From: Planktothrix rubescens CCAP 1459/22
Lineage (GTDB): Bacteria; Cyanobacteriota; Cyanobacteriia; Cyanobacteriales; Microcoleaceae
Direction: 5' to 3'
Length of the DNA: 64,000 nt
Assembly: GCA_904830895.1 (NCBI GenBank)
Contig: LR882958.1
Span: 3,736,001 to 3,800,000 of the forward strand
The position numbers and the translations under genes are program-made. Shown here one piece after another: positions 2,396 through 31,093 of this stretch (the first letter of the stretch is position 1; each line of letters begins with the position of its first letter). A model generated the notes under the pieces. It saw nothing but the letters and a program-made list of their open reading frames with translations. It was not told where the DNA came from and searched no databases.

Positions 2396-2458
2396 GGGAC
2401 AATCCTAAAATGATTATTTCTCTATTATATAATAGTAATCAGTTTCTTACCCATTACC

Positions 2459-2522: not shown

Positions 2523-2524
2523 AT

Positions 2525-3133: not shown

Positions 3134-3135
3134 AA

Positions 3136-4224: not shown

Positions 4225-4243
4225 AGAATAGGGAAGGGGGAAG

Positions 4244-4404
4244 GGGTAATGAGTAATGGGTAATGGGTAATGGGTAATGGGTAATGGGTAATGGGTAATG
4301 GGTAATGGGTAATGGGTTTTGGGTTTTGGGTTTTGGGTAATAAACTGTTAACTGTTAACTGATGACTGATAACTGTTAACTGTTAACTGTTAACTGATAA
4401 CTGT
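4244..4404. repeat. Heptanucleotide tandem repeat arrays (STRR type)
   Basis: Three back-to-back arrays fill the gap upstream of ribD. First come about nine units of GGGTAAT (4244-4316), then three of GGGTTTT (to about 4337), then a run of TAACTGT/TAACTGA units to 4404. Seven-base tandem repeats of this kind are the short tandemly repeated repetitive sequences described in cyanobacteria. The last array ends 2 nt before the stop codon of the neighbouring minus-strand gene at 4406. Confidence 0.92.
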
Positions 4405-4405
4405 T

Positions 4406-4951
4406 TCAACTGTCTTCAATGGCTGGAAGTTGGGGTAAGATTTGAGATTCGGGAAGTTGGGAAATAGTGAAAATTGAAGTTCCAGACTGGGATTGATTTT
4501 GGGCTTTGGTGAGTAAATCAACCGTATCGCCTAAAGCCATGGTTAAACTATTGCGAGTTTCCAGATGGGCTGCTTTTTCGGCTTCGATGGCTTCGACCAG
4601 TTGATGAATATGTTCCCTAGAGCGATCGCGTTCTAACATCACCTCAATTAATTTTGCCTTAACTTCATCCAAAGTTTTTAACGGGTCAATCTCTTGACGA
4701 ACGGCGACCCGTACCTGTAATTCATTGGGTAGGGGAGACAGGCGTTGCCATCGTTCTAACTCTCCCCGCAGTTCTCCCACCTGTTCTAAATAGCGTCCGG
4801 CTTCTTGGCGTCGTTGTTGGGCTTCAGTATTGTAGCGTTGTCGCCATTGGTCGGAACTTTCGACCGCCGCATTCAGATCCCGTTGGGTTTGTGCCAACTG
4901 TTGTTTCAAGCGTTTAATTTCATCAAGCCACTGCCGAACATCCTGGGTCAT
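4406..4951 (-). CDS. Conserved hypothetical coiled-coil protein
   Basis: Unrecognised soluble protein of 181 aa, mostly predicted coiled coil: LDEIKRLKQQLAQTQRDLNAAV near the N-terminus and long heptad-like Leu/Glu/Arg runs to about residue 150, then a hydrophobic, Pro-containing tail. The start chosen is the ATG at 4951 (MTQDVRQWLDEIK), which begins the hydrophilic helix. An upstream in-frame start at 5053 would add 34 hydrophobic, low-complexity residues that look non-coding. Neither start has a clear ribosome binding site. The stop lies at the edge of a heptamer repeat array. Function unknown; a structural or adaptor role would be a guess. Confidence 0.72.
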   Translation of the reverse strand: MTQDVRQWLDEIKRLKQQLAQTQRDLNAAVESSDQWRQRYNTEAQQRRQEAGRYLEQVGELRGELERWQRLSPLPNELQVRVAVRQEIDPLKTLDEVKAKLIEVMLERDRSREHIHQLVEAIEAEKAAHLETRNSLTMALGDTVDLLTKAQNQSQSGTSIFTISQLPESQILPQLPAIEDS

Positions 4952-5089
4952 AGAACTGGGAAAAATAAAAAATCGGGCAATTATTGATTCTAGTATTTTA
5001 TCTAAATATTGGTAAAATCTGTTAAATCCGATCGAGATATTGAGCAAAAACAAGATTTCATAGATTTTCCGTCATTCCTAGATATTATA

Positions 5090-6040
5090 TTATCTATTTT
5101 GCAATTTTCGCAATTGATCAAAGGCAGATTGTCTTAATTTCATGGGCAAAACAGATAAAATTAATCCTGTCCCTGCTTTGACAGTGGAATAAGATTTTCC
5201 CTGCCAAACCAGTTGTCTTCCTGCTTGAGTTTCTCCAGTTTCAATTAACCGTAATCCTAATAATAATTGTGTTTCAGCCAGACGGGATTGACGAATCGAT
5301 TCGCAAGTTTCTGACTCAAATTTAAAACTGTTTAAATAATTTAATTTATCGCGTAAATAGGGAATGGCTCGATTAATTCCTTGCTGTTCAGCATGAACCC
5401 GGTATTCCATTAATCGTTGTGCTAAGTAATATCCCGATTTTCCCGCTAATGCTAACCGGACAAATAAATCATTATCTTCACAGTTCTGTAAATTCGGACG
5501 CATGAAGTTTACATCTAATAAAGCTTGACGACGAAATAACGTGGCTCCTACCTGAAAACTTTGTTGAATGAAGATAACTCCTAATAAATTCTTAACGATT
5601 CCTTCGGCAAGTTTGGTTCTTCCCCACCGTTGAGAATTCTGTTGTGTTGCCTTTTGATCTCGCTGATTATTAATATCAATAATCCAATGATCGGTTCCAA
5701 CAAAATCTACTTCAGGATATTGATCTAAAATAGCTATTGTTTTCTCCAGAAATTCAGGGATCAGGCGATCATCATCATCAAATTTGATGAAATATTGCCC
5801 CGTTGCTGCTTCAAATCCTGAACGCATATTATTACTTTTACCAATATTTTGAGGATGGCGGATATAACGGATACGCGGATCTTGATATTTAGCCATTAAC
5901 TCTGGAGTTCCGTCAGTTGAGCCGTCATCACAAACGATTAATTCCCAATCAGAATAAGTTTGTTTTTGAATACTTTCAATGGCAAAGGGTAATATGTGAC
6001 AGCGATTAAAGCTGGGGATACAGACGGTAACTTTAGTCAT
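5090..6040 (-). CDS. Family 2 glycosyltransferase
   Basis: Cytoplasmic GT-A type glycosyltransferase, probably adding a sugar during polysaccharide or glycolipid synthesis. The N-terminus MTKVTVCIPSFNRCHILPFA and the following DWELIVCDDGSTDGTPE are classic GT2 nucleotide-binding motifs, and FIKFDDDDRLIPEF carries the metal-binding aspartates. QNCEDNDLFVRLAL is the expected downstream acceptor-site region. The ATG at 6040 is preferred over a GTG at 6076, because the longer form only adds a short hydrophobic lead before the first beta strand. It follows a pyruvyl-transferase-like gene on the same strand and probably shares its transcript. Donor and acceptor sugars cannot be deduced. Confidence 0.9.
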   Translation of the reverse strand: MTKVTVCIPSFNRCHILPFAIESIQKQTYSDWELIVCDDGSTDGTPELMAKYQDPRIRYIRHPQNIGKSNNMRSGFEAATGQYFIKFDDDDRLIPEFLEKTIAILDQYPEVDFVGTDHWIIDINNQRDQKATQQNSQRWGRTKLAEGIVKNLLGVIFIQQSFQVGATLFRRQALLDVNFMRPNLQNCEDNDLFVRLALAGKSGYYLAQRLMEYRVHAEQQGINRAIPYLRDKLNYLNSFKFESETCESIRQSRLAETQLLLGLRLIETGETQAGRQLVWQGKSYSTVKAGTGLILSVLPMKLRQSAFDQLRKLQNR

Positions 6041-6095
6041 GAGTTTATAATTATTTATCAAGACAAGCGGAATCACTATGATCTTATCAATTCGA

Positions 6096-7193
6096 TCATC
6101 GAGGAAATAATGTTAACAGTTCTTCAACAGCAGATTTTACCTGGCTGGGTTCTTTGACAAACCGACAAAAAGGAATTTGGTGAGTCCAAGTTTGATAAAA
6201 TAAATCGTTTTTATAATAAGAATTCGGCATAAAAACATGAGGAATTCCCAACAAAATACAGAGAATATGACCGTGTAAACGATTAGTAATAACTAAGCGA
6301 TACTTGAGCATTTGATACATTCCTGAGTGCATCATACTCCAAGACCGACGATGAAGTTCGGGTTGATCCATGTCCCTAAATTGACTAACATACGGGTGTA
6401 AATACTCCCACTTCTGCCGCGATAACCATTCCCTCGGAGTTGCAAAACCTCGCTGCCAACCTTCTCGAATTAATCGTACCATTCCCGGAATATAAATCGG
6501 CCAATCTTCAGGCGCTTTAGCCATCCAGGTATAAGAAACCCAATCTTCTATTACGAGGTCAGATATACCCAGAGAATCCGGGGAAAAACCTTGATTAAAT
6601 TCCTTATCCTGCCTACAGAAATATAAAATAGAAGATTCCGGTTTGATGTTTATTGGGATATCTGGTAAGTTCATCATCTGAAAGAACATATCTGGAGCTT
6701 TAATAACTTGACACTGATTAAAATGATCACTTGCTATTTGATAACTGTAGTTATCCCGCGCAAAAATAGTTAGCTGAGGATGAGAGTTAAAAACATCGGC
6801 TGTTTTTCTTAATTTGTTGGGATCGGAAAAATAAATACTTTGGGGTAAGATGAATATGGGTCTATCTGGGTACTGAGAAATAATCATCTCCCTAAAATTT
6901 TGATGGGGTAACCAGAGATCTCCTAAATTTCCCCCACCTTGTAGAAGTATCGGTACTTTTCCCGCTTTTTGATTCATTAATTCTCCTGAAAATCCAGTAA
7001 AAGTAGCAGAATATTTTATTTGAGCTTTTAGCACTTCACTCAAATAAAATATTGTTCCAATCCAAATCAAATGGTCGCCAATATTTGGATAAGCTGGATA
7101 GTCAAGTAAGGCACAACTTTCTATTTTTCCCAATCCTTGCAAAGATTGATGTAGGGCTTCTTTAACTTTTGTCGGACTTGAAAGATCGCTCAT
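6096..7193 (-). CDS. Polysaccharide pyruvyl transferase family protein
   Basis: Member of the family that adds pyruvate ketals to sugar residues of exopolysaccharides; some members have other sugar-modifying roles. Visible family features are the N-terminal SCALLDYPAYPNIGDHLIWIG (fold entry and N-x-G-D motif), ILLQGGGNLGDLW, ILPQSIYF, the FARDNYSYQIA segment and the C-terminal TNRLHGHILCILLGIPHVF with its conserved R-L-H-G-H. Length 365 aa. It lies in a minus-strand run of sugar-related genes, 55 nt upstream of the GT2 gene. The actual substrate is not known. Confidence 0.88.
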   Translation of the reverse strand: MSDLSSPTKVKEALHQSLQGLGKIESCALLDYPAYPNIGDHLIWIGTIFYLSEVLKAQIKYSATFTGFSGELMNQKAGKVPILLQGGGNLGDLWLPHQNFREMIISQYPDRPIFILPQSIYFSDPNKLRKTADVFNSHPQLTIFARDNYSYQIASDHFNQCQVIKAPDMFFQMMNLPDIPINIKPESSILYFCRQDKEFNQGFSPDSLGISDLVIEDWVSYTWMAKAPEDWPIYIPGMVRLIREGWQRGFATPREWLSRQKWEYLHPYVSQFRDMDQPELHRRSWSMMHSGMYQMLKYRLVITNRLHGHILCILLGIPHVFMPNSYYKNDLFYQTWTHQIPFCRFVKEPSQVKSAVEELLTLFPR

Positions 7194-7268
7194 CTCTATT
7201 TGATTAATAAACTATAATTATTCACGGAGGGCGTATGCTCCGAGATCAAGACAACTCATTCCGGGGTG

Positions 7269-8288
7269 CTAATTGTATATTTTCTTAAGTTTTTGCATCA
7301 CCTTTTGCATCTTTCTATTCGTTTTTACCCAGAAACTCGGTGGCTTTAATACTTGAGGTTTCAAATCGGGCTGCTTGATAAAACGATAGTGTAAAAATAT
7401 ATCTTGATAACGGATATTGACATCTTCACCCTGACACAATCGTGCAAAATCAGCCGAAGAGTAATTCATGTAATGAATTCGATGAATGGGTTTTAATCCT
7501 TCTTCATTATAAAGAACGTTATTAATATTGACAAAAGGATCGGCATCGGCACAATTTCCTGTTCGTTCTTGACCATTAGGACTGCGGGTAAAGTTAAACA
7601 TTTTTGGGTTTCCTGGAAATGTCATGTAGCTGAATAAACCCGAACTAGACCACCAAGATCTTGGCCGTACCCATTCTATTTCTCCTTGTTCGATGGCTCG
7701 TTTTTTCAAATCCTCTAACTGGTCAAAGCTGAATAAACCTTTTTTAGAACCAAAAAAACTATCACAGTGTAATCGAGGACGGATTTCATCTTCTGTTAGC
7801 CCCGTTTTTTGTTCAATGATTGACAAATCCAGTTCGGTTACATCTCGTGGCTTTTTATGTTCCCAATCATTAAAAACCAGATCGTACTCGTTGAGTTTTT
7901 CAAATATGTCATCTATAGGCTTCATGGCTAGACTATCACCATCAAAGAAGACAAATTTATCAAATTCCCCATCGAAAGCGGCAAATTTTCTATGAACAAA
8001 ACCTTGATACCAACCTGGACGCGATCTCTTTGAATCCTTAGCTCTGGAGTGAGATTCCCAAAGTTGATTGACAAAATTGTCCCACCCTTCGAGTGCTATC
8101 CTATTTTCAAATAGAGTAACATTTTCTCGACTGCTGATTTCTTGCTTAACTCGTTCAATCCGATGATCATAAGGAATCACGCAAACCGGGATATTTGGGC
8201 TAATATTAAGCTCAATACTATTGAGCAAAGCTACTAGCTGGTCAAAAACCACATCATTCGCTAAAGTATAAATGCCCAGGGTTTCCAT
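7269..8288 (-). CDS. GT-A-like nucleotide-sugar transferase family protein (Npun_R2821/Npun_R2822-like)
   Basis: A 339-residue protein that looks like a GT-A fold glycosyltransferase. It opens with METLGIYTLANDVVFDQLVALLNSI, typical of proteins scanning a sugar-nucleotide pocket, and has a probable metal-binding motif in KFVFFDGDSLAMKPIDD near residue 115. From memory it resembles a cyanobacterial family named after the Nostoc punctiforme genes Npun_R2821/R2822, which sit in polysaccharide clusters; that link is recollection, not a search. It is divergently transcribed from the next glycosyltransferase with a 61-bp shared promoter region. Confidence 0.7.
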   Translation of the reverse strand: METLGIYTLANDVVFDQLVALLNSIELNISPNIPVCVIPYDHRIERVKQEISSRENVTLFENRIALEGWDNFVNQLWESHSRAKDSKRSRPGWYQGFVHRKFAAFDGEFDKFVFFDGDSLAMKPIDDIFEKLNEYDLVFNDWEHKKPRDVTELDLSIIEQKTGLTEDEIRPRLHCDSFFGSKKGLFSFDQLEDLKKRAIEQGEIEWVRPRSWWSSSGLFSYMTFPGNPKMFNFTRSPNGQERTGNCADADPFVNINNVLYNEEGLKPIHRIHYMNYSSADFARLCQGEDVNIRYQDIFLHYRFIKQPDLKPQVLKPPSFWVKTNRKMQKVMQKLKKIYN

Positions 8289-8349
8289 GTATCAACTCCT
8301 AGTTCTTCTAAATCTGCTAACAATCTAAACTGACTTTTCAACTAATTTT

Positions 8350-9582
8350 ATGAGGAAAGCCAATTCCCTGAAAATCTTAATGATTTCTTCAACGTTCCCC
8401 TATCCCCCAACTCGAGGAGGCACCCAAGTTAGAACATTTAATTTACTCAAATATTTGAGTCAACAGAATTCTATCACAGTTGTAACTCAACAAAGCCCCG
8501 ATGTCACGGAGGAAGATATTGTTGCATTAAGGCAATGGGCGGATGAGGTTGTTGTTTTTCCCCGTCCAAACAGCCGAGGAAAAGGGAGTATTTTGGGAAA
8601 AGTCCAACGGTTTGGTCAATTTCTGATTCAGGGTAATCCACCGAGTGTACTGTCGAATTACTCAGAGGTGATGCAACAATGGATTGATCAATTTGTGCAG
8701 GGGGGAAAATGTGAAGTGATCACTTGCGAACATAGCGTTAATGAAATTTATGTTCGTCCGCAGTGGAAAAATCAACTCAAAACCGTTGTCAACGTTCACA
8801 GTTCAGTTTACGGCACCTGTCGCCAACAGTTAGAAACCCGAACCGCAGAACAACCTCTACGCGATCGCTTAAACCTTCCCCTACTCTATCGCTACGAACA
8901 ACGCTACTGCTCAAAATTTTCTGCAATTGTGGCAACAACAAAAGAAGATCGCCAGCAACTGCAAGATTTCAACCCCCAAGCCCAATTTGAAGTCATCGCC
9001 AATGGCGTAGATTTTGACAAATTTCCCTATAAAACCTCTGATCCCGGAGGACACCGATTGATTTTTATTGGGGCAATGGATAACTTAGCTAATATTGATG
9101 CGGCTCGTTATTTGAGTTTAGAGATATTTCCGCAAGTACAACAGTGTTATCCAGATGCCACACTTGCGCTTGTGGGAGCTAGACCCGTACCACAGGTGTC
9201 AGAATTATCGGCATTACCAGGAATTGAAGTGACAGGACAAGTCCCATCAATGGCAGAATATCTACATCAAGCAACTGTTTGTGTGATTCCAATGCGAACG
9301 GGTTTTGGAATTAAAAATAAAACCCTAGAAGCCATGGCCGCAGGAGTTCCCGTGGTGGCCAGCGATCGCGGTTTAGAAGGTTTGGCCGTTGATGGGCCCA
9401 ATGATCCCCATCGCGCTCTCCGGGCTAACACCGTGGCAGAATATGTAGAAACCATTAGCCGACTGTTTGAACATCCCCATCTGAGGGAACAATTGTCGCA
9501 AAATGGGAGATTATTAATAGAAACTGAATATACTTGGGAACGAGCCGGTGAACTTTATGAACAAGTATTGCTGCGTCGTTAG
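8350..9582 (+). CDS. GT-B glycosyltransferase (GT1/GT4 type)
   Basis: Sugar transferase with the two-Rossmann GT-B fold. The N-terminal domain opens with LKILMISSTFPYPPTRGGTQVR, with the usual glycine-rich acceptor loop. The C-terminal donor-binding domain includes FEVIANGVDFDKFPY, RLIFIGAMDNLANIDAARYL, CVIPMRTGFGIKNKTLEAMAAGVPVVASDRGLEGL (the conserved E-x7-E-type donor motif, here with GFGIKNKTLEAMA) and a final LIETEYTWERAGELYEQ helix. Length 410 aa. It heads a plus-strand series with the gene at 9608. Sugar specificity unknown. Confidence 0.9.
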   Translation: MRKANSLKILMISSTFPYPPTRGGTQVRTFNLLKYLSQQNSITVVTQQSPDVTEEDIVALRQWADEVVVFPRPNSRGKGSILGKVQRFGQFLIQGNPPSVLSNYSEVMQQWIDQFVQGGKCEVITCEHSVNEIYVRPQWKNQLKTVVNVHSSVYGTCRQQLETRTAEQPLRDRLNLPLLYRYEQRYCSKFSAIVATTKEDRQQLQDFNPQAQFEVIANGVDFDKFPYKTSDPGGHRLIFIGAMDNLANIDAARYLSLEIFPQVQQCYPDATLALVGARPVPQVSELSALPGIEVTGQVPSMAEYLHQATVCVIPMRTGFGIKNKTLEAMAAGVPVVASDRGLEGLAVDGPNDPHRALRANTVAEYVETISRLFEHPHLREQLSQNGRLLIETEYTWERAGELYEQVLLRR

Positions 9583-9607
9583 CCTAATCCCATCCTAATC
9601 CGAATCC

Positions 9608-11266
9608 ATGATGAATCCTTTAGAGACAGGTCATCAACCCTCGCCTAGAAAAAAGAGTCAACCCCAAAAACCTCAGCCTAAAACGGCCAAAACCCCTGCC
9701 AAATCAGGGCAACAGCGTCGCCAAGCTCGACGTTCCCAACCGGCTGCTTTACCTGCGGGGAAAAAAACAGCCCTCCAACCTCCGAAATCTCAACCGTCCC
9801 AACCCATTAGCCGATTTTGGAAAAAATGGATAGCCGACGGGGTTGCCTTTACTTTACTATTCGGAGGAACTGCCTTAATTGGGGGCTGTGCCTGGTTTAG
9901 TTATCAACTAATTGTTAATCCTGATATTGGAGTTTGGTTAAATCAATTGTTACCCAGTTGGACACAAATTCCCCTACAACGCCGCGACTCAATTGTTACC
10001 TTAGATGAAATTAATCAAGCCCTCAAAACAGAAGGGTTCATGGTGGGGAAATCCCTAACTTTACCGATGGTTGATTCCATTTCAAAAACGGGGAATGAGC
10101 AAAAATCCGCAGTCCCATTTAACTCTTTATTGATAAATTCAGATGCTATTGTTCAAAAGTCGAATGATTTATTAATTCCTATTTTAAAAACCCGTGACTC
10201 TAGTGTTACCCATCCCTGCGAAGGGACTTGTCAAGAAATTGTGCAGGTGCGGGTTTATGAAGCCGTTCAAACCCCCTATCAACGCCAGGGTAGCACTCAA
10301 TATTATCGGTTAATGCAGCAACTTGATACCCAAGGGCCAGCCGAATCTTTTGTGATTGCTTCCCTAATTGGAACCGAATCTAATCAACAGGGTTCTAATA
10401 AGCCCTTACCCCTAACTCGACTGACACAATTTAAAGGAAAAGTTCCTCAAGGGGGGGTCTGGTTTAATCTTAATAGTGAGCGGGTGGTGGGAGATAAAAC
10501 CGTTCCTTATGGACAGATTCTGCATTACAATCCGAGTCGCCATTATTTGAGCATGATGTTAGAATGGAAAAGTGCCGCCGGACAACAACCGATTTGGCAG
10601 GAAGTCACCGGAGGCAAAGATCCAGAATTATTAATTGAACAAACTATTGGGCTAGAGCCTCAATTTAGTATTTATCAAGTCCAACCTTTGCAATTTATTC
10701 CTAACCCGATTCAATTAACGGCTATTTCTTTAGATGAGATATTTTTAGATAATTATAATTATCGACAGTCTTTAAGATTGGCTCGTAGTGGGTTATGGTC
10801 GCCAGCATTGAATTTAATTAAACCGTTGAAAAAAAATATAGTCTCTGGAAATAGTCCTAATTTGAAATGGTCAACAGCCGTTCAAGCCCAGTTAGATTTA
10901 ATTGAATTTCATGCTAAAATTACCAAAGCTCAAGCCGTTGCAGCCTGGGCAAGTCCGAGTCAACAGGTATTAGCCAGTTTAATTGATGGACGCTGGACGG
11001 AAGCCCTAGAAGTGTTAAAAAATAGCCCAGGAAATCAACAAGAAATTACCAATTTATTAAGATCAAATGGCGGACGGATTAAAAATCGTCTGAATGCGGC
11101 TTTATTAGAAAATCCAGAACAGTTGGAATTAAAAACCTGGGGAACTTTAATTATTGCGGCGGAAAATGGTAGAAATCGAGCGATTAATTGGTTAGATGAA
11201 CAACCGAAAACCGAGCAGAAAGACCGCCAAGAAATCCTAGAGTTATTATTAAAATCAATAGAATAA
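9608..11266 (+). CDS. Conserved hypothetical protein with basic Pro-rich head and one membrane helix
   Basis: Not recognised. The first 70 residues are Pro/Gln/Lys/Arg-rich and disordered-looking. A single membrane segment follows at about residues 78-100 (VAFTLLFGGTALIGGCAWFSY), then about 450 residues of mixed soluble sequence with helical repeats near the C-terminus (LLIAAENGRNRAINWLDEQ). The topology suggests a cytoplasmic basic tail and a periplasmic or lumenal domain. It begins 25 nt after the upstream glycosyltransferase, so co-transcription is likely, but no catalytic motif links it to sugar chemistry. Confidence 0.72.
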   Translation: MMNPLETGHQPSPRKKSQPQKPQPKTAKTPAKSGQQRRQARRSQPAALPAGKKTALQPPKSQPSQPISRFWKKWIADGVAFTLLFGGTALIGGCAWFSYQLIVNPDIGVWLNQLLPSWTQIPLQRRDSIVTLDEINQALKTEGFMVGKSLTLPMVDSISKTGNEQKSAVPFNSLLINSDAIVQKSNDLLIPILKTRDSSVTHPCEGTCQEIVQVRVYEAVQTPYQRQGSTQYYRLMQQLDTQGPAESFVIASLIGTESNQQGSNKPLPLTRLTQFKGKVPQGGVWFNLNSERVVGDKTVPYGQILHYNPSRHYLSMMLEWKSAAGQQPIWQEVTGGKDPELLIEQTIGLEPQFSIYQVQPLQFIPNPIQLTAISLDEIFLDNYNYRQSLRLARSGLWSPALNLIKPLKKNIVSGNSPNLKWSTAVQAQLDLIEFHAKITKAQAVAAWASPSQQVLASLIDGRWTEALEVLKNSPGNQQEITNLLRSNGGRIKNRLNAALLENPEQLELKTWGTLIIAAENGRNRAINWLDEQPKTEQKDRQEILELLLKSIE

Positions 11267-11318
11267 ATTCATTGAAAATAATTCACTTTCCTTCGACCGA
11301 TAGGGTCAAGTTTCTATC

Positions 11319-12134
11319 ATGATGAATTGGAATGAGCATAGATTTAATTTTTTAGAAAAAGCTCGCCAGCAAGTCGCTTTTTATTTAGAAGATATTAACA
11401 CCCCCATCGGAAAAACCGTTAATTTAACCTTAACCGGATTAATTTTAATCTCCTTAACCAGTTTTATCGCCCAAACCTATCCTCTTTCTGATGTAGTTCA
11501 TTCTCGGTTAGAATTACTGGATTTTGTGATTTTAATTTGTTTTACAATTGAGTATTTAATTCGATTTTGGGTGGCTGATAATAAAAAAGAATTTATATTC
11601 AATCCTTTATCTATTATTGATTTAGTTATTATTTTACAGGGTTATTTAAGATTTTTAAATATTGGTTATTTGAGAATCTTTCGCTGGTTTAGAATCCTCC
11701 GATTAATTAGATTTATTGATGTTAAAATCTCAATTTTCAGGATTAAAAGCGAAGATGGAGTCATTTTAGCTCGCATTATTTTTACCCTATTAACTATTAT
11801 TTTTATCTTTTCTGGCTTAATTTATCAAGTCGAACATCCCGTTAACCCAGAAGTGTTTAAAACCTTCTTAGATGCGGTTTATTTTTCCGTCGTCACCATG
11901 ACCACCGTAGGGTTTGGGGATGTTACCCCGATATCAGATATGGGAAGATTTTTAACAATTTTAATGATATTAACCGGAATTGCTTTAATTCCTTGGCAAT
12001 TAGGAGATTTAATCAAACAACTACTCAAAACAACTAATCAAATAGAAACAATTTGTTCCGGGTGTGGGTGGTCAGCGCATGACAAAGACGCCCGTTTTTG
12101 TAAACGCTGTGGAACTCCATTGAAAAACTCTTAA
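11319..12134 (+). CDS. Voltage-gated-like potassium channel with C-terminal zinc ribbon
   Basis: Six-helix cation channel subunit expected to tetramerise in the membrane. Helices S1-S3 fall at about residues 30-50, 65-86 and 95-115. S4 is the arginine-rich YLRIFRWFRILRLIRFIDVK near 120-140. S5 is near 150-172, and the pore loop carries the potassium selectivity filter TTVGFGD near 197. After S6 the usual cytoplasmic regulatory domain is replaced by a short four-cysteine ribbon, CSGCGW ... FCKRCGTPL, near residues 243-268. That C-x2-C ... C-x2-C tail is expected to bind zinc. It starts 52 nt after the gene at 9608. Channel identity is secure; gating and ion are inferred. Confidence 0.9.
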   Translation: MMNWNEHRFNFLEKARQQVAFYLEDINTPIGKTVNLTLTGLILISLTSFIAQTYPLSDVVHSRLELLDFVILICFTIEYLIRFWVADNKKEFIFNPLSIIDLVIILQGYLRFLNIGYLRIFRWFRILRLIRFIDVKISIFRIKSEDGVILARIIFTLLTIIFIFSGLIYQVEHPVNPEVFKTFLDAVYFSVVTMTTVGFGDVTPISDMGRFLTILMILTGIALIPWQLGDLIKQLLKTTNQIETICSGCGWSAHDKDARFCKRCGTPLKNS

Positions 12135-12142
12135 ATAGTGCT

Positions 12143-12277
12143 AAGTAGTTGCACAAAATAAATTACCTAGTTGAGAGAGGGAACACCGGAACAGCCCCCC
12201 CAAACCCCCCGTGCACGGGGGGCTAGGGGGGGAGGGAACAGGGTAGAGGATGTGTAATTAATTTTGTTTAGGTACTT
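12143..12277. mobile_element. 135-bp MITE-like element, copy 1
   Basis: Matches 56769-56903 over the full 135 bp with only three base differences. The ends form an imperfect terminal inverted repeat, with aagtagttgcacaaaataaa at the left and ttttgtttaggtactt at the right, the outer aagta/tactt being exact. The centre holds a palindrome, CCCCCCGTGCACGGGGGG, that would form a strong hairpin. No ORF fits inside. The element lies between two convergent genes, the ion channel and cysH. No clear target-site duplication is visible. It is probably mobilised in trans by an unidentified transposase. Confidence 0.85.
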
Positions 12278-12283
12278 ATAAAA

Positions 12284-12309
12284 CCTGCCCTCATCAAAAT
12301 GGGAGCAGG
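12284..12309 (-). terminator. Candidate terminator of cysH
   Basis: Read on the minus strand, CCTGC and GCAGG pair around an A/T-rich loop and are followed by TTTTA. It lies 50 bp past the cysH stop codon and could also serve the convergent channel gene. Confidence 0.45.
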
Positions 12310-12358
12310 CCCTTGTACAGATGGGGAACACACTCGTTTTCAATCTCCCAGATTCGTC

Positions 12359-14685: not shown

Positions 14686-15555
14686 ATGAAAATCAATCAT
14701 AAAATTCCAATCACGCTGGAAAAATCTCTATTAAATTGGATGATTGTTATATTAATGGTGTTATTGTATGCACCACTTTTAATACATTGGTATGACGGTT
14801 GGCTGCATAAAACGATCAGCATTGAACATGAATATTTTAGTCATGGTTTAATCGGTTTACCCTTTGCAGCTTATATTGCCTGGACAAAGCGGCATCAGTG
14901 GAAACGTTTACCCAATACTAGCCATCCGTTAGGAATCGGATTAATTGTGATAGGTAGTATTTTTTATTGGAGCGGTTTATCTGATTTAGTTAATCTTTCT
15001 TTTCCTTTAATGTTGGCAGGACTTTGCCTATCTTTTAAAGGAATTGAAGGCTTAAAATTACAGAAAATGCCCTTAGTGTTTGTATTACTAGCAACCCCGA
15101 ATCATTTACCCTATTTAATAGAACCCATCGCCTTACCCTTGCAGAAATTTATTGCTAATGTGGCTGGATTTATTCTAATTCAATTTAACTTGAATGTCCA
15201 TGTAGAACAAATTTATCTGTTTGTGAATGATCAAATTGTTGAAGTTGCCCCGCACTGTGCTGGGTTAAAAATGTTATTTACCAGTTTGTATGTAGGATTA
15301 ATGTTGCTCTATTGGACAGGACTTTTAGACTCAAAAAAACTAAGTATTTTCTTTCTAGTTAGTGCGGGCTTAATTAGTATTATTGCTAATATTATTCGCA
15401 ATACCTTATTAACGCTGTTTCATGGCACAGGTCAAGATGGGTTATTTTCCTGGCTCCATGAAGGTTGGGGCGGAGATTTATATTCAGCCTGTATGTTAGG
15501 TTTATTGGTAGTATTAATTAATGGTTTACAACATTATACTGGAATTGATTCCTAA
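14686..15555 (+). CDS. Cyanoexosortase B
   Basis: Integral-membrane cysteine transpeptidase-like enzyme that recognises PEP-CTERM tails on exported proteins, cleaving and possibly transferring them to the surface, often in polysaccharide-producing bacteria. The 289 residues form about eight hydrophobic segments. The exosortase catalytic triad is visible: Cys191 in VAPHCAGLKML, Arg238 in NIIRNTLL and His258 in SWLHEGWGG. The gene order exosortase followed by a 230-aa partner is the cyanoexosortase B arrangement as I recall it. It precedes the polysaccharide export genes. No PEP-CTERM substrate gene was recognised in the window. Confidence 0.9.
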   Translation: MKINHKIPITLEKSLLNWMIVILMVLLYAPLLIHWYDGWLHKTISIEHEYFSHGLIGLPFAAYIAWTKRHQWKRLPNTSHPLGIGLIVIGSIFYWSGLSDLVNLSFPLMLAGLCLSFKGIEGLKLQKMPLVFVLLATPNHLPYLIEPIALPLQKFIANVAGFILIQFNLNVHVEQIYLFVNDQIVEVAPHCAGLKMLFTSLYVGLMLLYWTGLLDSKKLSIFFLVSAGLISIIANIIRNTLLTLFHGTGQDGLFSWLHEGWGGDLYSACMLGLLVVLINGLQHYTGIDS

Positions 15556-21173: not shown

Positions 21174-21602
21174 ATGGAAGATTGGTCAAAAAGTATTGTA
21201 GAAGCGATAGAAACAACCGTTTCTGACATGGAGAAGTTTTTTACAGACGTGACTGAAGAATTGAACGAAATATTAAACGAACTCACCAAGATATCGGAAG
21301 AAATTACCGATGAGGTACAAAATAAAATTCTTCCCGAACTTGATGAATATATCAATGATATCTTTGAACCGATTATTGATATTTATTTTGATCTGGATTT
21401 AGGTCTGAATTTAGATATTGATACCGAGGACGAACATTTTGATCCCTTTGTCACATACATTCAACCGACAGAAACCGAACACCCTGCTTGTCGAGGATGT
21501 CAACATTATCACGGACAAGTTTATGGGGGAAATTTATTGGTTTGTGGAATGCACCCGATGGGCGCTGAAGCAGAAACTTGTCCAGACTGGGAAGGGGAAT
21601 AG
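21174..21602 (+). CDS. Conserved hypothetical protein with acidic helices and a C-terminal Cys cluster
   Basis: Unrecognised. The first 95 residues are strongly acidic and helical (DWSKSIVEAIETTVSDMEKFF ...). The C-terminal 40 residues carry a cysteine pattern, C-R-G-C-Q-H-Y-H-G ... L-V-C-G-M-H-P ... E-T-C-P-D-W, that looks like a small metal-binding or disulfide motif. A similar C-x2-C ... C ... C-P-D-(Y/W) pattern ends the unrelated protein at 31431. The end of the gene touches a 79-bp inverted repeat. No function can be assigned. Confidence 0.78.
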   Translation: MEDWSKSIVEAIETTVSDMEKFFTDVTEELNEILNELTKISEEITDEVQNKILPELDEYINDIFEPIIDIYFDLDLGLNLDIDTEDEHFDPFVTYIQPTETEHPACRGCQHYHGQVYGGNLLVCGMHPMGAEAETCPDWEGE

Positions 21603-21744: not shown

Positions 21745-21815
21745 GTTAATAAATTCACTATTAACTGATAACTCTTACACTGATAACTGATAACTGATGA
21801 CTGATGACTGATGAC
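21745..21815. repeat. TGATAAC/TGATGAC heptamer array reaching into the helicase start
   Basis: About eight imperfect seven-base units (actgataa, actgatga) run up to and across the start codon of the helicase-like gene at 21811, so its first codons (ATG ACT GAT) are made of repeat sequence. Confidence 0.85.
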
Positions 21816-23178
21816 TGATAAATGTATTCCTCAAATTCCCTTATCTTTGCATCTGCGAGAGTATCAACAGCAAGCGGTGAATAATTGGTTTGCTAATCGA
21901 GGGCGGGGAACGTTAAAAATGGCAACTGGAAGCGGTAAAACTATTACTGCTTTAGCGATCGCTACTCAGTTATATGATCAAATAGGATTACAAGCAATTA
22001 TCATTATTTGCCCCTATTGCCATTTAGTAATTCAATGGGAAAAAGAGGCTAAAAAATTTGGATTACAACCGATTTTAGCCTTTGAAAATGTGCGCCATTG
22101 GCAAAAACAATTATCGGCGGAACTCTATCAATTAAGAGCCGGAAATCAGTTTTTTTTAACGGTTATTACGACTAATTCTACCTTAATTTCTGAAGGTTTG
22201 CAATCGCAAATTCGTTATTTTCCTGAAAAAACTCTGATTATTGGGGATGAAGCCCATAATTTAGGAAGTCCCAAATTAGAAGAAAGTTTACCCCGAAATA
22301 TTGGCTTGAGATTAGCCCTTTCTGCTACTCCTGAACGACATTTTGATCAAAGTGGCAGCGATGCTATTTTAGATTATTTTGGGCCAGTTTTACAACCGGA
22401 ATTAACTCTAGCTGAAGCGATTCGTCAAGGGGCGTTAGTGCGGTATTTATATTATCCGATTTTAGTAGAATTAACTGAAGCTGAAAGCAGAGCTTATCAT
22501 AGGTTAACGACTCGAATTGGTTGGGTATTGACAAGGGATAAAGACTGGGAAAATAACGAAAATATTACCGCTTTATTAATTCAAAGATCTCGGTTAATTG
22601 CCTCCGCTAGTAACAAGTTAGATGCCCTACGCCAGTTAATGAAAACCCGGTTACATACAACCCATACTTTATTTTATTGTGGGGATGGAAGTGTAGAAAC
22701 CCTAGAGGATTATTCTCCTCGACAATTGGAAGCAACGGTTGAATTATTAGGAGCAGAATTAGGTTATCGGGTGAATACTTATACCGCCGAAACCCCTTTA
22801 ATAGAGCGAGAAAAATTACGCCGACAATTTGAACAGGGAGAATTACAAGGGTTAGTTGCTATTCGGTGTTTAGATGAAGGAGTTGATATTCCAGCGATTA
22901 AAAATGCGGTAATATTAGCAAGTAGTTGTAATCCTCGACAATTTATTCAGCGACGGGGGAGAATATTAAGACCCCATCCAGGTAAAGAACGGGCAACATT
23001 ATTTGATATGATTGTATTACCACCAGATTTAGATAGAAATACCTTAGAAGTTGAACGGAATTTGTTAAGAAAAGAGTTAAAACGGTTTTTGGAATTTGCC
23101 AATTTAGCTGATAATGCTGGGGAAGCGAGATTAAAATTACTTCAGTTACAAAAACGATATGGGTTATTAGATTTATAA
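21811..23178 (+). CDS. DEAH-box SF2 helicase, DNA phosphorothioation-linked restriction-enzyme-like
   Basis: Superfamily 2 helicase of 455 aa. Motifs in order: Q-like LHLREYQQQAVNNWF, Walker A LKMATGSGKT near residue 39, DEAH box LIIGDEAHNLG near 148, motif III LALSATPERHF near 170, RCLDEGVDIP and motif VI FIQRRGRILRPHPG near 380. From memory it resembles the family annotated as DNA phosphorothioation system restriction enzyme, usually found next to dnd genes. That fits the DndD-like ATPase two genes downstream. No separate nuclease motif is visible. The start codon lies in a heptamer repeat array, and a tandem hairpin array separates it from the next gene. Confidence 0.82.
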   Translation: MTDKCIPQIPLSLHLREYQQQAVNNWFANRGRGTLKMATGSGKTITALAIATQLYDQIGLQAIIIICPYCHLVIQWEKEAKKFGLQPILAFENVRHWQKQLSAELYQLRAGNQFFLTVITTNSTLISEGLQSQIRYFPEKTLIIGDEAHNLGSPKLEESLPRNIGLRLALSATPERHFDQSGSDAILDYFGPVLQPELTLAEAIRQGALVRYLYYPILVELTEAESRAYHRLTTRIGWVLTRDKDWENNENITALLIQRSRLIASASNKLDALRQLMKTRLHTTHTLFYCGDGSVETLEDYSPRQLEATVELLGAELGYRVNTYTAETPLIEREKLRRQFEQGELQGLVAIRCLDEGVDIPAIKNAVILASSCNPRQFIQRRGRILRPHPGKERATLFDMIVLPPDLDRNTLEVERNLLRKELKRFLEFANLADNAGEARLKLLQLQKRYGLLDL

Positions 23179-23201
23179 TCTTATTTTGGATTGCAAATTC
23201 C

Positions 23202-23444
23202 GTTGTTGGGCTTTAGCCCCTCCCCGGAGCGCTGAAGCGCAATTATTTCGTTGTTGTGCTTTAGCACCCCTCCCCGGAGCGCTGAAGCGCAATTATTTCG
23301 TTGTTGTGCTTTAGCACCCCTCCCCGGAGTGCTGAAGCGCAATTATTTCGTTGTTGTGCTTTAGCACCTCCCCGGAGCGCTGAAGCGCAATTATTTCGTT
23401 GTTGTGCTTTAGCACCCCTCCCCGGAGCGCTGAAGCGCAACAAC
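23202..23444. repeat. Five tandem hairpin units of about 50 bp
   Basis: Contiguous units begin at about 23202, 23250, 23300, 23350 and 23398, each built from gttgttgtgctttagcac, cccctccccgga and gcgctgaagcgcaa. The first and third parts of a unit can pair with G-U wobbles, giving one long stem around a C-rich loop. Units 2 and 3 differ at a single base; units 1 and 4 are 48 bp rather than 50. It lies between the helicase gene and the small gene at 23530, inside what is otherwise an operon. Confidence 0.93.
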
Positions 23445-23529
23445 GGGCAACAATAACAATGGCAAGAAGTTGACAAAATATTGTAATATTGAGGGTAGTG
23501 CCGACTGCCATAATAAGGGGATAATTAAA

Positions 23530-23769
23530 ATGTTTAAATATTCTGAAAGTATTATTACCACTATTGCTAATGTTTTCTCTGAGAAAAAATCTAGTTATGG
23601 GGATAATATTAATCCTAAAGAAGCTCAAGACCCGATTATCAATGCTTCCCCGGAAGTGCGAGAAATTATTGAACGGGTATTACAAGCCGAACGAGATAAA
23701 CTATATATGAAAAATCCGCGTAATATTAATGATGATATTCTCAAAATTATTAAGGATGTGGTGAAATGA
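23530..23769 (+). CDS. Small protein coupled to the DndD-like gene
   Basis: A 79-aa acidic/basic helical protein (MFKYSESIITTIANVFSEKK ... SPEVREIIERVLQAERDKLYMKNPRNINDDILKIIKDVVK). No catalytic motif is visible. The ATG at 23530 has a good ribosome binding site, AAGGGG, 8 nt upstream; a longer frame from 23470 runs into the repeat region and is less likely. Its stop overlaps the next start as ATGA (23766-23769), so translation is coupled to the DndD-like ATPase. Small proteins in this position are known in dnd-type loci, where they are named only as system-associated, so that role is inferred from context. Confidence 0.8.
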   Translation: MFKYSESIITTIANVFSEKKSSYGDNINPKEAQDPIINASPEVREIIERVLQAERDKLYMKNPRNINDDILKIIKDVVK

Positions 23770-25832
23770 AATTAATTTCGATTCAACTCTGCAATTTTCG
23801 ACAATTTTATGGGAAAACTCCAGAAATAAATTTAGCTTCTGGAGAACGAAATACAACGGTTATTCATGGTAATAATGGAGCCGGAAAAACCACCTTAATG
23901 AATGCTTTTACTTGGGTTCTCTATGAAAAGTTTAGTGCCGCATTTTCTATTTCTGAACATCTCGTCAATAAACGAGCTTTAAATGAAGCTGAACCCGGAC
24001 AAGGAGTAGGATGTTGGATAGAATTAATCTTTGAACATGATCATAAACGATATTTAGTTAAACGAATTTGTCGAGCATATAAAAATGGGAATGATATCGA
24101 ACAAACCCCTAGTCAATTATATATGCAAGTGGCTGGAGATGACGGACGCTGGGGAATGCCTCCTCATCCACCGGAGGAAATTATTAATCGAATTTTACCA
24201 TTAAGTTTACATCAATATTTCTTTTTTGATGGAGAGAGAATTGAGCAAATTGTTAGAGATGAACGCAAACTAGAAATTTCTGACGCGACTAAAGAATTAT
24301 TAGGAGTAGAGGTTTTAAATCGAGCCATTAAACATTTAGGGGAAGCCAAAAAATCCTTAGAAACGGATTTAGCAATTATTGGAAATCCTGAAACTAAAAA
24401 ATATTTACAAGACAAGAAAAAAGCGGAACAGGAAATTGAGAGATTATCCCAAAGACAGACGGAAATTAACCAAGAATTGGAGAGTCTAAAACAGATAAAA
24501 TGTACTTTGAGTGAGCGATTATTGGAGTTGGGGGGCGCGGCGGAATTACAAAGGTTGCGGGATGAATTAGATCGCAAAAGACAATCATTACGCGAACAAC
24601 TCCATCAAGCTCATATTGCCATTAATCGGGCTATTTCTACAAAAGCCTATACGGTTTTAATCCCAGAATTAACGGCAGAATTTAGAAGTTTATTTTCAGG
24701 TTTACGAGAACGGGGAGAGTTAAATACCGGAATTACAAAACAGTTTGTGCAAAATTTATTAGAGCAAAAACAATGTATTTGTGGGGCTGAATTAATTCCT
24801 GGAAAAACTGAATGTGAACAGGTTCAACACTTATTAAATCGGTCTGGAACTGCGGATATTGATGAAACAGCGATTCGTTTGAGTACCCAAGTCGATGAAT
24901 TAGATAAACAAGGGATTCAATTTTGGGAAGAAATTAATCGTCAACAACACAATATTCAAACGAATAGAGAAGAATTACAAAGAATTGAAAATGAACTCGA
25001 TAGTATTACCAATAAACTCAGAAAATTTCCCAATGAGGATATTCAAGAATTGCAAAAACGTTTAGATGAAATTGAACTTAAAATCAGTGAACTGAATCGA
25101 GAAACGGGTTCAAATCAACAACAAATTGAAACATTTACACAGACTATTGAGAGTTTATCTCGACAAATAGATAAACAGCAAATGAATGAAACGAAACAAC
25201 TGTTAGTTCAAAGAAGAATTGCAGTTACTCAGGATACAATTCTGCGTTTAAATGAAGTCAAAGACCGTTTAGACCAACAATTTCGCTGTCAGTTAGAAAA
25301 ACGAGTTCAGAAGCTATTTAGTCAAATTTCCTTTACCCCATATTTACCTAAATTAACTGAAAAATATGAATTAAAATTAGTAGAAACCACCGCCGGAGAT
25401 GAAGCAGAAGTCGCCGCTTCCACGGGGGAAAATCAGATTTTAAGTTTATCTTTTATTGGGGGAATTATTGATGGAGTCAGAGAATGGAGTCAAAAAAATA
25501 CCTTAATGGGGCCAGATAGTAGCACCTTTCCGATTGTTATGGACTCACCTTTTGGTAGTTTAGATGAAATTTATCGCCGACAAATTGCCAATATTATTCC
25601 TCAATTAGCGAATCAATTAATTGTTTTAGTTACGAAGACTCAATGGCGCGGAGAAGTGGCGCAAGAGATGGAAAAACGCATTGGACGGGAATATGTTTTA
25701 TCCTACAATTCTCCCAAAACTGATTGTGAGGAAGACTGGATAGAATTAGCCGGAAATCGTTATCCTTTAGTCCATCAAAGTCCCAATGATTTTGAATACA
25801 CGGAAATTTTAGAAGTGGAATATGATTTTTAG
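23766..25832 (+). CDS. DndD-like SMC/Rad50-family ATPase
   Basis: Rad50/SMC-type ATPase of 688 aa. The N-terminal nucleotide site is VIHGNNGAGKTTLMNAFTWVLY near residue 35, followed by LPLSLHQYFFFDGERIEQIVRDE, a hallmark of DndD and relatives. A long coiled coil covers about 195-310 and 365-490, broken by a zinc-hook-like CICGAEL ... C region near 336. The C-terminal half of the ATPase has ILSLSFIGGIIDG (signature region) and PIVMDSPFGSLDE (Walker B). In dnd systems this protein works with DndC and DndE in DNA sulfur modification. None of dndB, dndC or dndE is seen in this window, so function is uncertain. It overlaps the small gene upstream by 4 nt. Confidence 0.85.
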   Translation: MKLISIQLCNFRQFYGKTPEINLASGERNTTVIHGNNGAGKTTLMNAFTWVLYEKFSAAFSISEHLVNKRALNEAEPGQGVGCWIELIFEHDHKRYLVKRICRAYKNGNDIEQTPSQLYMQVAGDDGRWGMPPHPPEEIINRILPLSLHQYFFFDGERIEQIVRDERKLEISDATKELLGVEVLNRAIKHLGEAKKSLETDLAIIGNPETKKYLQDKKKAEQEIERLSQRQTEINQELESLKQIKCTLSERLLELGGAAELQRLRDELDRKRQSLREQLHQAHIAINRAISTKAYTVLIPELTAEFRSLFSGLRERGELNTGITKQFVQNLLEQKQCICGAELIPGKTECEQVQHLLNRSGTADIDETAIRLSTQVDELDKQGIQFWEEINRQQHNIQTNREELQRIENELDSITNKLRKFPNEDIQELQKRLDEIELKISELNRETGSNQQQIETFTQTIESLSRQIDKQQMNETKQLLVQRRIAVTQDTILRLNEVKDRLDQQFRCQLEKRVQKLFSQISFTPYLPKLTEKYELKLVETTAGDEAEVAASTGENQILSLSFIGGIIDGVREWSQKNTLMGPDSSTFPIVMDSPFGSLDEIYRRQIANIIPQLANQLIVLVTKTQWRGEVAQEMEKRIGREYVLSYNSPKTDCEEDWIELAGNRYPLVHQSPNDFEYTEILEVEYDF

Positions 25833-29354: not shown

Positions 29355-29693
29355 ATGGAACAAACCTTTGGAAAGCTAATTCGTCAGGCGCGGAAAGAAA
29401 AGTTCTACTCACAGCGTCAGTTAGCGGCATTGCTGGAAGTGGATTTCACCTATTTATCTAAGCTAGAGAATGATCGCGCCGATTACTCTCCTAAAGAAGA
29501 TGTAATTAGGGGTTTGGCGAGAAATCTGGGTTTGGATGAGGAGGAATTGATCTTTTTGGCGGGGCGAATACCTCAGCATTATGAGAAATTTCTCAAAGAA
29601 AATAATAAGAGTATGACGGCTCTATTCCGCCGGATGCAAGAAAATCCGAACTTTGCCCAGCAAATTTTTGAGGCTGCGCGGGAGGTAGAATAA
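29355..29693 (+). CDS. XRE-family helix-turn-helix regulator
   Basis: A 112-aa DNA-binding protein. The HTH lies at about residues 8-60: FGKLIRQARKEKFYSQRQLAALLEVDFTYLSKLENDRADYSPKEDVIRGLARNLGL, a standard Cro/C1 fold. The C-terminus, MTALFRRMQENPNFAQQIFEAAREVE, is helical. It probably represses its own operon through the two TTGAA-N6-TTCAA palindromes upstream. Its stop is immediately followed by the GTG of the ImmA/IrrE-type peptidase, a pairing in which the peptidase usually cleaves the regulator to relieve repression under stress or mobile-element induction. Confidence 0.92.
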   Translation: MEQTFGKLIRQARKEKFYSQRQLAALLEVDFTYLSKLENDRADYSPKEDVIRGLARNLGLDEEELIFLAGRIPQHYEKFLKENNKSMTALFRRMQENPNFAQQIFEAAREVE

Positions 29694-30329
29694 GTGAGTA
29701 TCCTGAAACCCTATCGCTTTTATCGTCGAGAGTCGATTGAGCGTCGGGCAAATGAGATTTTGCGACGGATGCAAGCCACACCCAATTTTGCCCCTGAGTG
29801 GCCGTTTGAGGCTTCTTTGGTGGCAGACTTTCTGGATTTAGGGGTAGTTTGGGATTGCATTGTGCCCGATGAACAGGGGGCGATCGCGGCTCGAATTTTG
29901 CCCACGGAAAGACTAATCGAAATTAACGAAGAAATTCAAGAAAAACCCAAGGGCTTTATTGAGTCTACAATTGCCCATGAAATCGGTCATTGGATATTAC
30001 ATATTGATCATGATCAATTAGAGTCTGGAGCCTTAGAAACTTCTGAAAATCTATTAGATGAACCCTTTGTTTGTCGAGCTACAATTGAAGATGCCCGTTT
30101 AGCATCTATTGAATGGCAAGCTCAATATTTTGCCAGTTGTTTGTTAATGCCACGCCCAATTTTAGAAGCCAAACGAGTCGGTCGAGATTTAACCAATTGG
30201 CAACACCTTTATACCATCAAAGATGAGTTGGGGGTGAGTATTTCTAATTTAACTAATCGTTTACAGGAATTAGGTTGGATTTCTATTCCTAAAGGAGAAC
30301 GCACGATTTACCCGGGAAAAGCTGCTTAA
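29694..30329 (+). CDS. ImmA/IrrE family metallo-endopeptidase
   Basis: Zinc peptidase of 211 aa with the HEXXH-type motif TIAHEIGHWILH near residue 99, followed by a downstream EWQAQYFASCLLMPRPIL segment that supplies the third ligand and wall of the active site. The start is a GTG directly after the XRE stop (TAA-GTG). The N-terminal stretch EILRRMQATPNFAPEWPFEA closely matches the C-terminal tail of the upstream XRE protein. Family members cleave an XRE partner, which is the expected target here. The gene ends 8 nt before a tandem repeat, so no further gene seems to belong to this operon. Confidence 0.92.
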   Translation: MSILKPYRFYRRESIERRANEILRRMQATPNFAPEWPFEASLVADFLDLGVVWDCIVPDEQGAIAARILPTERLIEINEEIQEKPKGFIESTIAHEIGHWILHIDHDQLESGALETSENLLDEPFVCRATIEDARLASIEWQAQYFASCLLMPRPILEAKRVGRDLTNWQHLYTIKDELGVSISNLTNRLQELGWISIPKGERTIYPGKAA

Positions 30330-30537: not shown

Positions 30538-30789
30538 ATGCCCAATCTGTCCCTTCCTTATCCCGATGATTTGCTCGTTACTTCTGGCAAATCTCCCGAA
30601 GGCTTAGAAGCTGAATTGCTCTTTTTGCTGGCAGTAAAGCTATTTGAGTTACGGCGACTATCTCTCGGAAAAGCCGCTGAATTTTGTCGAATGAATAAAC
30701 TGCAATTTATGTATGAAATCGGACGATTACAAGTTCCGGTAATCAACCTAGATGATGACCAAATCGCTGACGAATTACGGGATGATTAA
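30538..30789 (+). CDS. UPF0175 family antitoxin-like protein
   Basis: An 83-aa protein matching the UPF0175 pattern: an N-terminal strand (NLSLPYPDDLLVTSGKSPEGLEAELLFLLAVKLFELRRLSLGKAAEFCRMNKLQFMYEIGRLQVPVIN). The helix-turn-helix-like LSLGKAAEFCRMNKLQFMYEI would bind DNA. The C-terminal tail (NLDDDQIADELRDD) is the usual acidic end. UPF0175 proteins commonly pair with DUF3368 PIN toxins, as here, where the stop overlaps the next start by 8 nt. Confidence 0.88.
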   Translation: MPNLSLPYPDDLLVTSGKSPEGLEAELLFLLAVKLFELRRLSLGKAAEFCRMNKLQFMYEIGRLQVPVINLDDDQIADELRDD

Positions 30790-31093
30790 TCAGATTATTA
30801 TTGCCGATAGTAGTCCTCTGATATCCCTAGCTATTATCGAACAACTAGAACTTTTGCCCCGGTTGTATCAGCGAGTTTTACTTCCCCCTGCTGTTTGGAA
30901 CGAAGTCACAGTTCAAGGGTTAGGCTTACCGGGAGCCGAGGCAGTTAGTCAGGTGAAATGGCTGGAAATAGAAGCACCATTACCGATGCTGTTAGAGCCA
31001 TTATTAATATTAGTAGATCACGGAGAAGCAGAAGCTATTGCCTTAGCTAAATCTACTCCGATAAAACCTTTAATTTTAGATGGTATAATATAA
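30782..31093 (+). pseudogene. DUF3368 PIN-domain toxin, C-terminally truncated
   Basis: The 103-aa product starts with the PIN N-terminus MINQIIIADSSPLISLAIIEQLELL (first catalytic Asp in ADSSPLI). It carries the second acidic site in LPPAVWNEVTVQG and the third in DHGEAEAIALAK. Family members are about 150-160 aa and continue after LILD with a segment like D-E-R-x-G-R-K. Here the frame stops at LILDGII (31091-31093), so the last acidic site and the C-terminal helices are missing. It overlaps the antitoxin gene by 8 nt (ATGATTAA). The toxin is probably inactive, while the antitoxin is intact. Confidence 0.78.

Follow-up and report, generated by a model that had tools for sequence, protein, structure and literature searches.

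The question raised by this 64,000-nucleotide stretch of the Planktothrix rubescens CCAP 1459/22 chromosome (the window; positions 3736001–3800000 of the 5.46 Mb contig C1) is what three genes at 21811–25832 that resemble part of a DNA phosphorothioation system may do at a place where no dnd gene adjoins them. The initial annotation had joined a helicase, a small protein and a DndD-like ATPase into one Dnd-related unit, and the coordinates as well as the 4-base ATGA overlap of the last two genes were verified. By profile and motif evidence we assign the unit as pbeA–pbeB–pbeC of a Dnd/Pbe phosphorothioate (PT) system, and we consider it probable that it would be the restriction-side core of a scattered PT-dependent system imposing a non-cutting block on the replication of unmarked DNA. 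The genes of the unit are the following:

21811–23178, + strand: pbeA, 455 amino acids (aa), XPB-like SF2 helicase/translocase without an N-terminal PLD/HKD nuclease domain
23530–23769, + strand: pbeB, 79 aa, small coupled protein, its C-terminal half conserved
23766–25832, + strand: pbeC, 688 aa, CxC-clade ABC ATPase

The window ATPase reaches 178 bits against TIGR03185 (DndD), below the curated cut-off of 245.85, and 1087 bits against the PADLOC PbeC profile PDLC02753, of which positions 1–648 of 648 are covered. Since the genome's true DndD also scores well with the PADLOC PbeC models (898 bits at best), the CxC hook was used as a second, better test; this zinc hook is described as the mark of a sister clade to DndD, the DndD proteins themselves being without CxC (PMC10853773). 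Among the proteins of more than 600 aa gathered for comparison the hook is present in 33 of 33 PbeC and in 0 of 14 DndD sequences, and the window protein carries it as CIC at residue 337, along with Walker A (GNNGAGKT, residue 35) and DSPFG (residue 593). The identity of the ATPase as DndD, as it had been read at first, was thus ruled out by the sub-cut-off TIGR03185 score together with the hook. The other family link of the initial annotation, that of the helicase to TIGR04095, was upheld (665 bits, cut-off 600). This protein also matches PADLOC PDLC02704 (541 bits), has its nearest solved chains in RAD25/XPB (E 1e-21) and shows GSGKT at residue 40, DEAH at 146, SATP at 171 and QRRGRILR at 380.

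The small protein gave no convincing match in the profile libraries, the PADLOC profiles included, and is assigned as PbeB by its position between pbeA and pbeC and by its conservation. In every one of the 80 named loci, each centred on pbeC with flanks that reach 10 kb at most and frequently stop short at a contig end, the sequence upstream of pbeC contains a PbeB match; in the same loci pbeA was seen 63 times (once as a 53-aa piece), the pbeD candidate introduced below 46 times and dndC 32 times. An overlap of 4 bases is found in 28 of the 31 pbeB–pbeC pairs measured, the window pair included. In comparison with the congener G157 the ratio of non-synonymous to synonymous substitution rates (dN/dS) is 0.10 for pbeA, 0.11 for pbeB (78 codons) and 0.095 for pbeC, at protein identities of 91%, 94% and 89%, respectively, so the three genes are under purifying selection. 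Because of the constant PbeB match and these low ratios, the pbeA–pbeB–pbeC unit is confirmed as real and as more than a chance arrangement.

The modification half of the system

The first of the two alternatives offered by the initial annotation, that the modification genes lie elsewhere, is borne out. The same contig carries dndC, dndD and dndE at 5.27 Mb, 1.5 Mb from the window unit, each above its cut-off: DndC with 677 bits (cut-off 290), DndD at C1:5269142 with 655 bits (cut-off 246) and DndE, found near dndD by the locus search only, with 132 bits (cut-off 72). Genome-wide, dndC has this single match at E 1e-40, and dndD matches both the gene at 5.27 Mb and the one in the window. By these profile scores the modification genes are elsewhere in the genome and not missing. 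A complete dndBCDE set elsewhere, acting together with the window genes, had been named as the outcome that would speak against the initial proposal; dndC, dndD and dndE were found, whereas canonical dndB (TIGR03233) has no match in the genome at E 0.001, and for the joint action we infer it. The DGQHR/DndB-like protein of the dnd locus reaches 22 bits with that dndB model, the cut-off of which is 328. Between its gene and dndC the window genome carries an HNH gene, the product of which gives 100 bits with NF045808, a PT-binding endonuclease family with a cut-off of 180. TIGR03237 had no match in the genome itself and TIGR03238 none in 166 genomes of the order, and no control genome matched either model; we take both to represent DndFGH proteins. 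In one locus (L069, 13099–14616) dndE is directly followed by a TIGR04096 gene, 'DNA phosphorothioation-associated putative methyltransferase' (744 bits), and related frames, some of them cut by stretch ends, occur in 8 of the 20 neighbourhoods described below.

The candidate for the fourth pbe gene is a TIGR04062 protein ('DNA phosphorothioation-associated protein 4' by the name of the model) encoded at C1:4068589–4069044, 0.31 Mb from the window unit and not directly after pbeC. It shares 59% identity with the query, which came from a different genome. In other genomes the gene does follow pbeC, as in 14 of the 20 fetched neighbourhoods, and its equation with PbeD is proposed on position and length. 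Among solved structures nothing convincing was found for PbeB or for this PbeD candidate.

The set resembles DndCDEA-PbeABCD, described by Xiong et al. (2019, PMC6459918) from the archaeon Haloterrigena jeotgali A29: both comprise the helicase PbeA, a small PbeB (79 aa in Planktothrix, 66 in the archaeon), the AAA/ABC ATPase PbeC, dndCDE and, among the pbe genes, one coding for about 152 aa. It differs in that the Planktothrix PbeA is without the PLD domain, that the pbeD candidate and dndCDE lie apart from pbeABC and that the system is known here from its genes alone. According to the same source, the archaeal system cuts SNJ1 plaque numbers about 10^4-fold in a PT-dependent way: viral DNA enters the cell and stays uncut, while its replication is limited. 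Full protection there needs all four pbe genes, a low-level resistance remaining without pbeA. The window unit also shares the CxC zinc-hook ATPase, the helicase and the small protein with the CxC ABC-ATPase-DndE systems of Rakesh, Aravind and Krishnan (2024, PMC10853773). In the vast majority of those an HKD nuclease is reported to be fused to the helicase, from which cleavage is argued, and the CxC ATPase and a DndE cognate are described as universally linked; here, unlike there, the main helicase copy is without the nuclease across the order, and in the window genome the pbeD candidate lies away from the ATPase gene.

Distribution, inheritance and break-up

Four markers were followed through 386 cyanobacterial genomes with thresholds of E 1e-60 for pbeC, E 1e-40 for the helicase and dndC and E 1e-10 for pbeD, at which markers at contig ends or diverged copies can escape; pbeC and dndC each turned up in 93 genomes, the pbeD candidate in 94 and the helicase in 98. 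Within the order Cyanobacteriales (104 genomes) 86 genomes have all four markers, 8, from five genera, have none, and 10 have some. The partial genomes comprise three with dndC alone, two with helicase, pbeC and pbeD without dndC, and one each with pbeD alone (a fragment with stops), the helicase alone, helicase and dndC, helicase, dndC and pbeD, and all markers except the helicase. At genus level the set is complete in every sampled genome of 44 of the 55 genera. Outside the order any marker was seen in 9 of 282 genomes and all four in one. In the order pbeC occurs in 89 genomes, with one match per genome, and it accompanies dndC in 87 of the 92 genomes that have the latter, while pbeC only, dndC only and neither account for 2, 5 and 10 genomes. 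By Fisher tests, uncorrected for shared ancestry, p is 7e-9 for the pair pbeC and dndC and 9e-15 for pbeC and pbeD.

The same kind of dnd genes, likewise enriched in this order, was described by Jian et al. (2021, PMC8569181), who inferred vertical inheritance; that paper calls PT restriction systems absent in Cyanobacteria, unlike the situation found here, where pbeC goes with nearly every dndC of the order, and 'pbe' has no occurrence in its main text. A Type III restriction enzyme beside dndBCDE in Microcoleus (PMC8546630) is, by its description, probably the same helicase gene, and split dnd genes are reported there too; that system is described as destroying unmodified DNA, whereas the window protein is without a nuclease domain. 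In the open-access literature searched no statement was found of an order-wide nuclease-less Pbe set accompanying cyanobacterial dnd, although some of this may already stand in the supplementary data of the three papers from 2019, 2021 and 2024.

The two halves are neighbours in part of the order. Among 20 neighbourhoods fetched from 19 genomes, in some of which the stretches were too short or the genes apart, nine (L061–L066, L069, L079 and L080) hold the whole series pbeA-pbeB-pbeC-(HNH, DGQHR)-dndC-dndD-dndE in one stretch, with the pbeD candidate after pbeC. The four markers lie on one contig in 54 genomes, spanning at most 15.7 kb in 27, 25–200 kb in 2 and more than 200 kb in 25. Several distinct break patterns occur in the order, which suggests that the cluster came apart by more than one route while its genes were retained. 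Decay has been caught in a few genomes: G383 has pbeA, dndC, dndD and dndE in pieces, and pbeC was not found there at E 1e-60; G159 lacks a dndC match at E 1e-40, and its pbeA is spread over two frames, its pbeB and pbeC being intact; in G054 pbeA is interrupted although dndC is present. The first two cases fit a shared function of both halves, the third does not speak for it, and none of them is proof.

Trees were built for those 27 of 30 chosen genomes that gave PbeC, DndC and RpoB, G131 being left out with no RpoB match and G070 and G170 with no full DndC. Eight of the 11 strong PbeC splits recur in the RpoB tree, one conflicts with a strong RpoB split, and the patristic correlation (r) is 0.83. 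PbeC is thus constrained and mostly vertically inherited, while the history of DndC is more mixed and the two did not always travel together (the figures are weighed in the next section). The suggestion of the initial annotation that the unit arrived with a plasmid, made from the CyRepA1 replication gene next to it, is unsupported: pbeC sits on the 5.46 Mb chromosomal contig, is found in the large majority of the order's genomes and stays close to the RpoB tree, and CyRepA1 was seen as its neighbour only in Planktothrix and the nearest relatives. What is seen is a widespread, repeatedly broken-up system rather than a plasmid import.

Block or cut

The best PADLOC PbeA match of the window helicase covers profile positions 243–681 of 682 only, positions 1–242 being unmatched. 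No nuclease domain is among the Pfam matches of pbeA, tblastn found no PLD match in the window, and in the loci examined the sequence upstream of pbeA genes without the domain was equally free of one. Judged by open-frame length, a main-copy helicase frame of at least 600 aa occurs in 0 of the 91 order genomes with the helicase and in 6 of 7 outside the order, where the PLD-bearing PbeA of G193 and G170 shows an HxK motif in its PLD domain. By this measure the PLD domain is absent from the main PbeA copy order-wide. In a PLD search of 243 order genomes 187, among them one of the window's own species (G502), had no match at E 1e-20. A PbeA-like PLD domain (at least 245 bits) was seen in 19 of the 243; six of these (G070, G116, G197, G253, G310 and G355) were also in the helicase search, and there the PLD domain belongs to a second copy beside a PLD-less main copy. 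Weaker matches of 100–146 bits lie mostly in frames of about 1,050–1,150 aa. In four loci a second PLD-helicase gene of 655–671 aa follows the pbeD candidate at about 0.1–1.1 kb, its PLD part being 65–69% identical to that of the outgroup PbeA of G193 and its helicase part divergent:

L113, 2492–4459: second PLD-helicase gene
L164, 8730–10745: second PLD-helicase gene
L167, 14712–16682: second PLD-helicase gene
L202, 14062–16041: second PLD-helicase gene

A single loss of the PLD domain is not established, since in the helicase tree G193 and G170 branch among the PLD-less sequences, with node supports of 24–67. The PbeA profile also finds a PLD domain on another contig of the window genome (C4:29064–29771; 136 bits in the order-wide PLD search), and its reading as a domain split off to another replicon was rejected, the frame being the first of an apparently broken PLD-SNF2 helicase gene. 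This domain scores better with the PbeA models (233 bits) than with PADLOC PLD_Helicase (29 bits), and its class therefore rests on the neighbourhood and on the frame lengths of the weaker matches. Positions 2–12325 of that 48 kb contig hold large ATPase-like, methyltransferase-like and broken PLD-helicase genes and resemble a decayed defence cluster, the SNF2, DUF499 and DUF1156 labels of its genes being our assumption.

The PLD-less, RAD25/XPB-like PbeA fits the no-cleavage view for this lineage. In the working that we propose, DndCDE would add sulfur at its own motif on host DNA, and the coiled-coil ATPase PbeC, with PbeD and PbeB, would scan DNA. At unmarked sites the PbeC complex would load PbeA, an XPB-like translocase, and the complex would block the replication of incoming DNA instead of cutting it. 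A block rather than a cut is proposed because PbeA has no nuclease domain here.

Several observations weigh against this reading. The DndC tree shares only 5 of 8 strong splits with that of RpoB, with 2 conflicts (r 0.63), and only 4 of 11 strong PbeC splits recur in the DndC tree, again with 2 conflicts (r 0.65); DndC is also only 76% identical to its counterpart in G157. The lock between the halves is not absolute, as five genomes of the order have dndC without pbeC and two have pbeC, helicase and pbeD without dndC. The PbeD candidate shows no profile similarity to DndE (hhalign probability 0.4%, from shallow profiles). The archaeal PbeA has the PLD domain and all four pbe genes are needed there, so the PLD-less form may act differently (PMC6459918). 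Cleavage is, moreover, argued for in PMC10853773, and the HNH gene at the dnd locus could keep a cleaving version possible.

Such a cleaving restriction, in which DNA seized by PbeABC would be cut in trans, by the HNH protein encoded next to dndC or by some other nuclease, is in our estimate unlikely, though the strongest of the alternatives. Besides the position of the HNH gene, HNH best matches in 6 of the 20 neighbourhoods (L061, L062, L065, L066, L067 and L069; some of the 20 stop before dndC) speak for it, as does the report of varied nucleases in dnd neighbourhoods by PMC10853773. HNH is, however, present in only 11 of the 80 named loci, where the short flanks also left dndC visible in only 32; the protein resembles, below cut-off, a PT-binding family, and PT-dependent cutting would be expected to hit the host's own marked DNA. 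For most of the order it is unlikely that another gene supplies the PLD domain in trans, given the 187 genomes without a match.

A housekeeping function, with PbeABC(D) and PT serving chromosome maintenance, repair or oxidative protection, seems slightly less likely still. The presence of pbeC throughout much of the order as one match per genome, its mostly vertical descent, a dN/dS of about 0.1 and the retention of the set in the 25 of 54 genomes where it is spread over more than 200 kb would all agree with it, and an antioxidant or epigenetic use of dnd in Cyanobacteriales is proposed in PMC8569181. Both PbeC and DndC are, however, far less constrained than RpoB (dN/dS 0.095 and 0.235 vs 0.025), genomes without any of the four markers are known from five genera, and the experimentally tested relative is antiviral (PMC6459918).

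A stand-alone, sulfur-independent module, as the second alternative of the initial annotation had it, or a decaying remnant is very improbable, for although the unit stands apart from dnd, the two genomes without dndC keep helicase, pbeC and pbeD, and 320 of 553 pbeAC pairs are reported without dndCD within 10 kb, 165 of these without any modification gene there (PMC6459918), dndCDE is in the genome, the joint presence and loss of pbeC and dndC (87 with both, 10 with neither) fits such a module poorly, and the motifs are intact and under purifying selection.

Surroundings of the unit and its meaning for the order

The gap between pbeA and pbeB measures 351 bases and contains one further feature:

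23197–23440, no strand: tandem repeat, five copies of a palindromic 50-base unit in the pbeA–pbeB gap (Tandem Repeats Finder)

All five copies lie in the gap, which in a single-strand RNA fold forms one long hairpin (z −10.8). A related Planktothrix locus (L154) has one copy, so that the copy number varies among close relatives, and the repeats are probably not part of the Pbe system. Scans for promoters and terminators found no excess of sites over shuffled sequences. An alternative TTG start at 23470 would extend pbeB to 99 aa.

CyRepA1 is indeed the next gene after pbeC (NF042913, 557 bits, cut-off 200), while the gap of 131 bp first given for it comes to 130 bases from the pbeC stop to the in-frame ATG at 25963, or to 16 with the TTG at 25849 as start. 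It follows pbeC in 5 of the 80 named loci, those of Planktothrix and its nearest relatives, and also in the congener G157, has a dN/dS of 0.13 and is a neighbour, not a part of the system.

Upstream of pbeA, 21174–21602 encodes a protein of 142 aa that is acidic in its N-terminal part and contains cysteine in its C-terminal part; in three loci of the same family (L063, L064 and L071) relatives of this protein stand near pbeA. Farther away, an HTH_3 regulator (112 aa) is directly followed by an M78/IrrE-type peptidase (211 aa) at 29355–30329. At 30538–31093 a UPF0175 protein overlaps a short, maybe truncated frame of 113 aa, presumably PIN-like, and the pair resembles a toxin–antitoxin remnant. 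A 289-aa membrane protein at 14686–15555, which we assume to be exosortase-like, borders what we take to be a polysaccharide export cluster.

For the Cyanobacteriales as a whole we would put forward, tentatively and as a view more doubtful than the assignment of the window unit itself, that PT and nuclease-less PbeABCD may form a conserved, largely vertical chromosomal set for which the operon is no longer needed: a non-cutting, sulfur-reading replication gate, nearer to housekeeping than to a mobile defence island. Whether Pbe cuts is disputed between the experiments of 2019, which found no cleavage (PMC6459918), and the HKD-based argument of 2024 for cleavage (PMC10853773), and the order-wide main PbeA copy without the HKD domain provides a natural test of this question. 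The cyanobacterial dnd genes, said in 2021 to have no restriction partner (PMC8569181), gain a widespread one, which may have been overlooked as its genes lie apart or are otherwise named. For such genes the label 'solitary', when given from a view of the neighbourhood alone, is unsafe: these are defence-like genes held together by selection after the break-up of their cluster.

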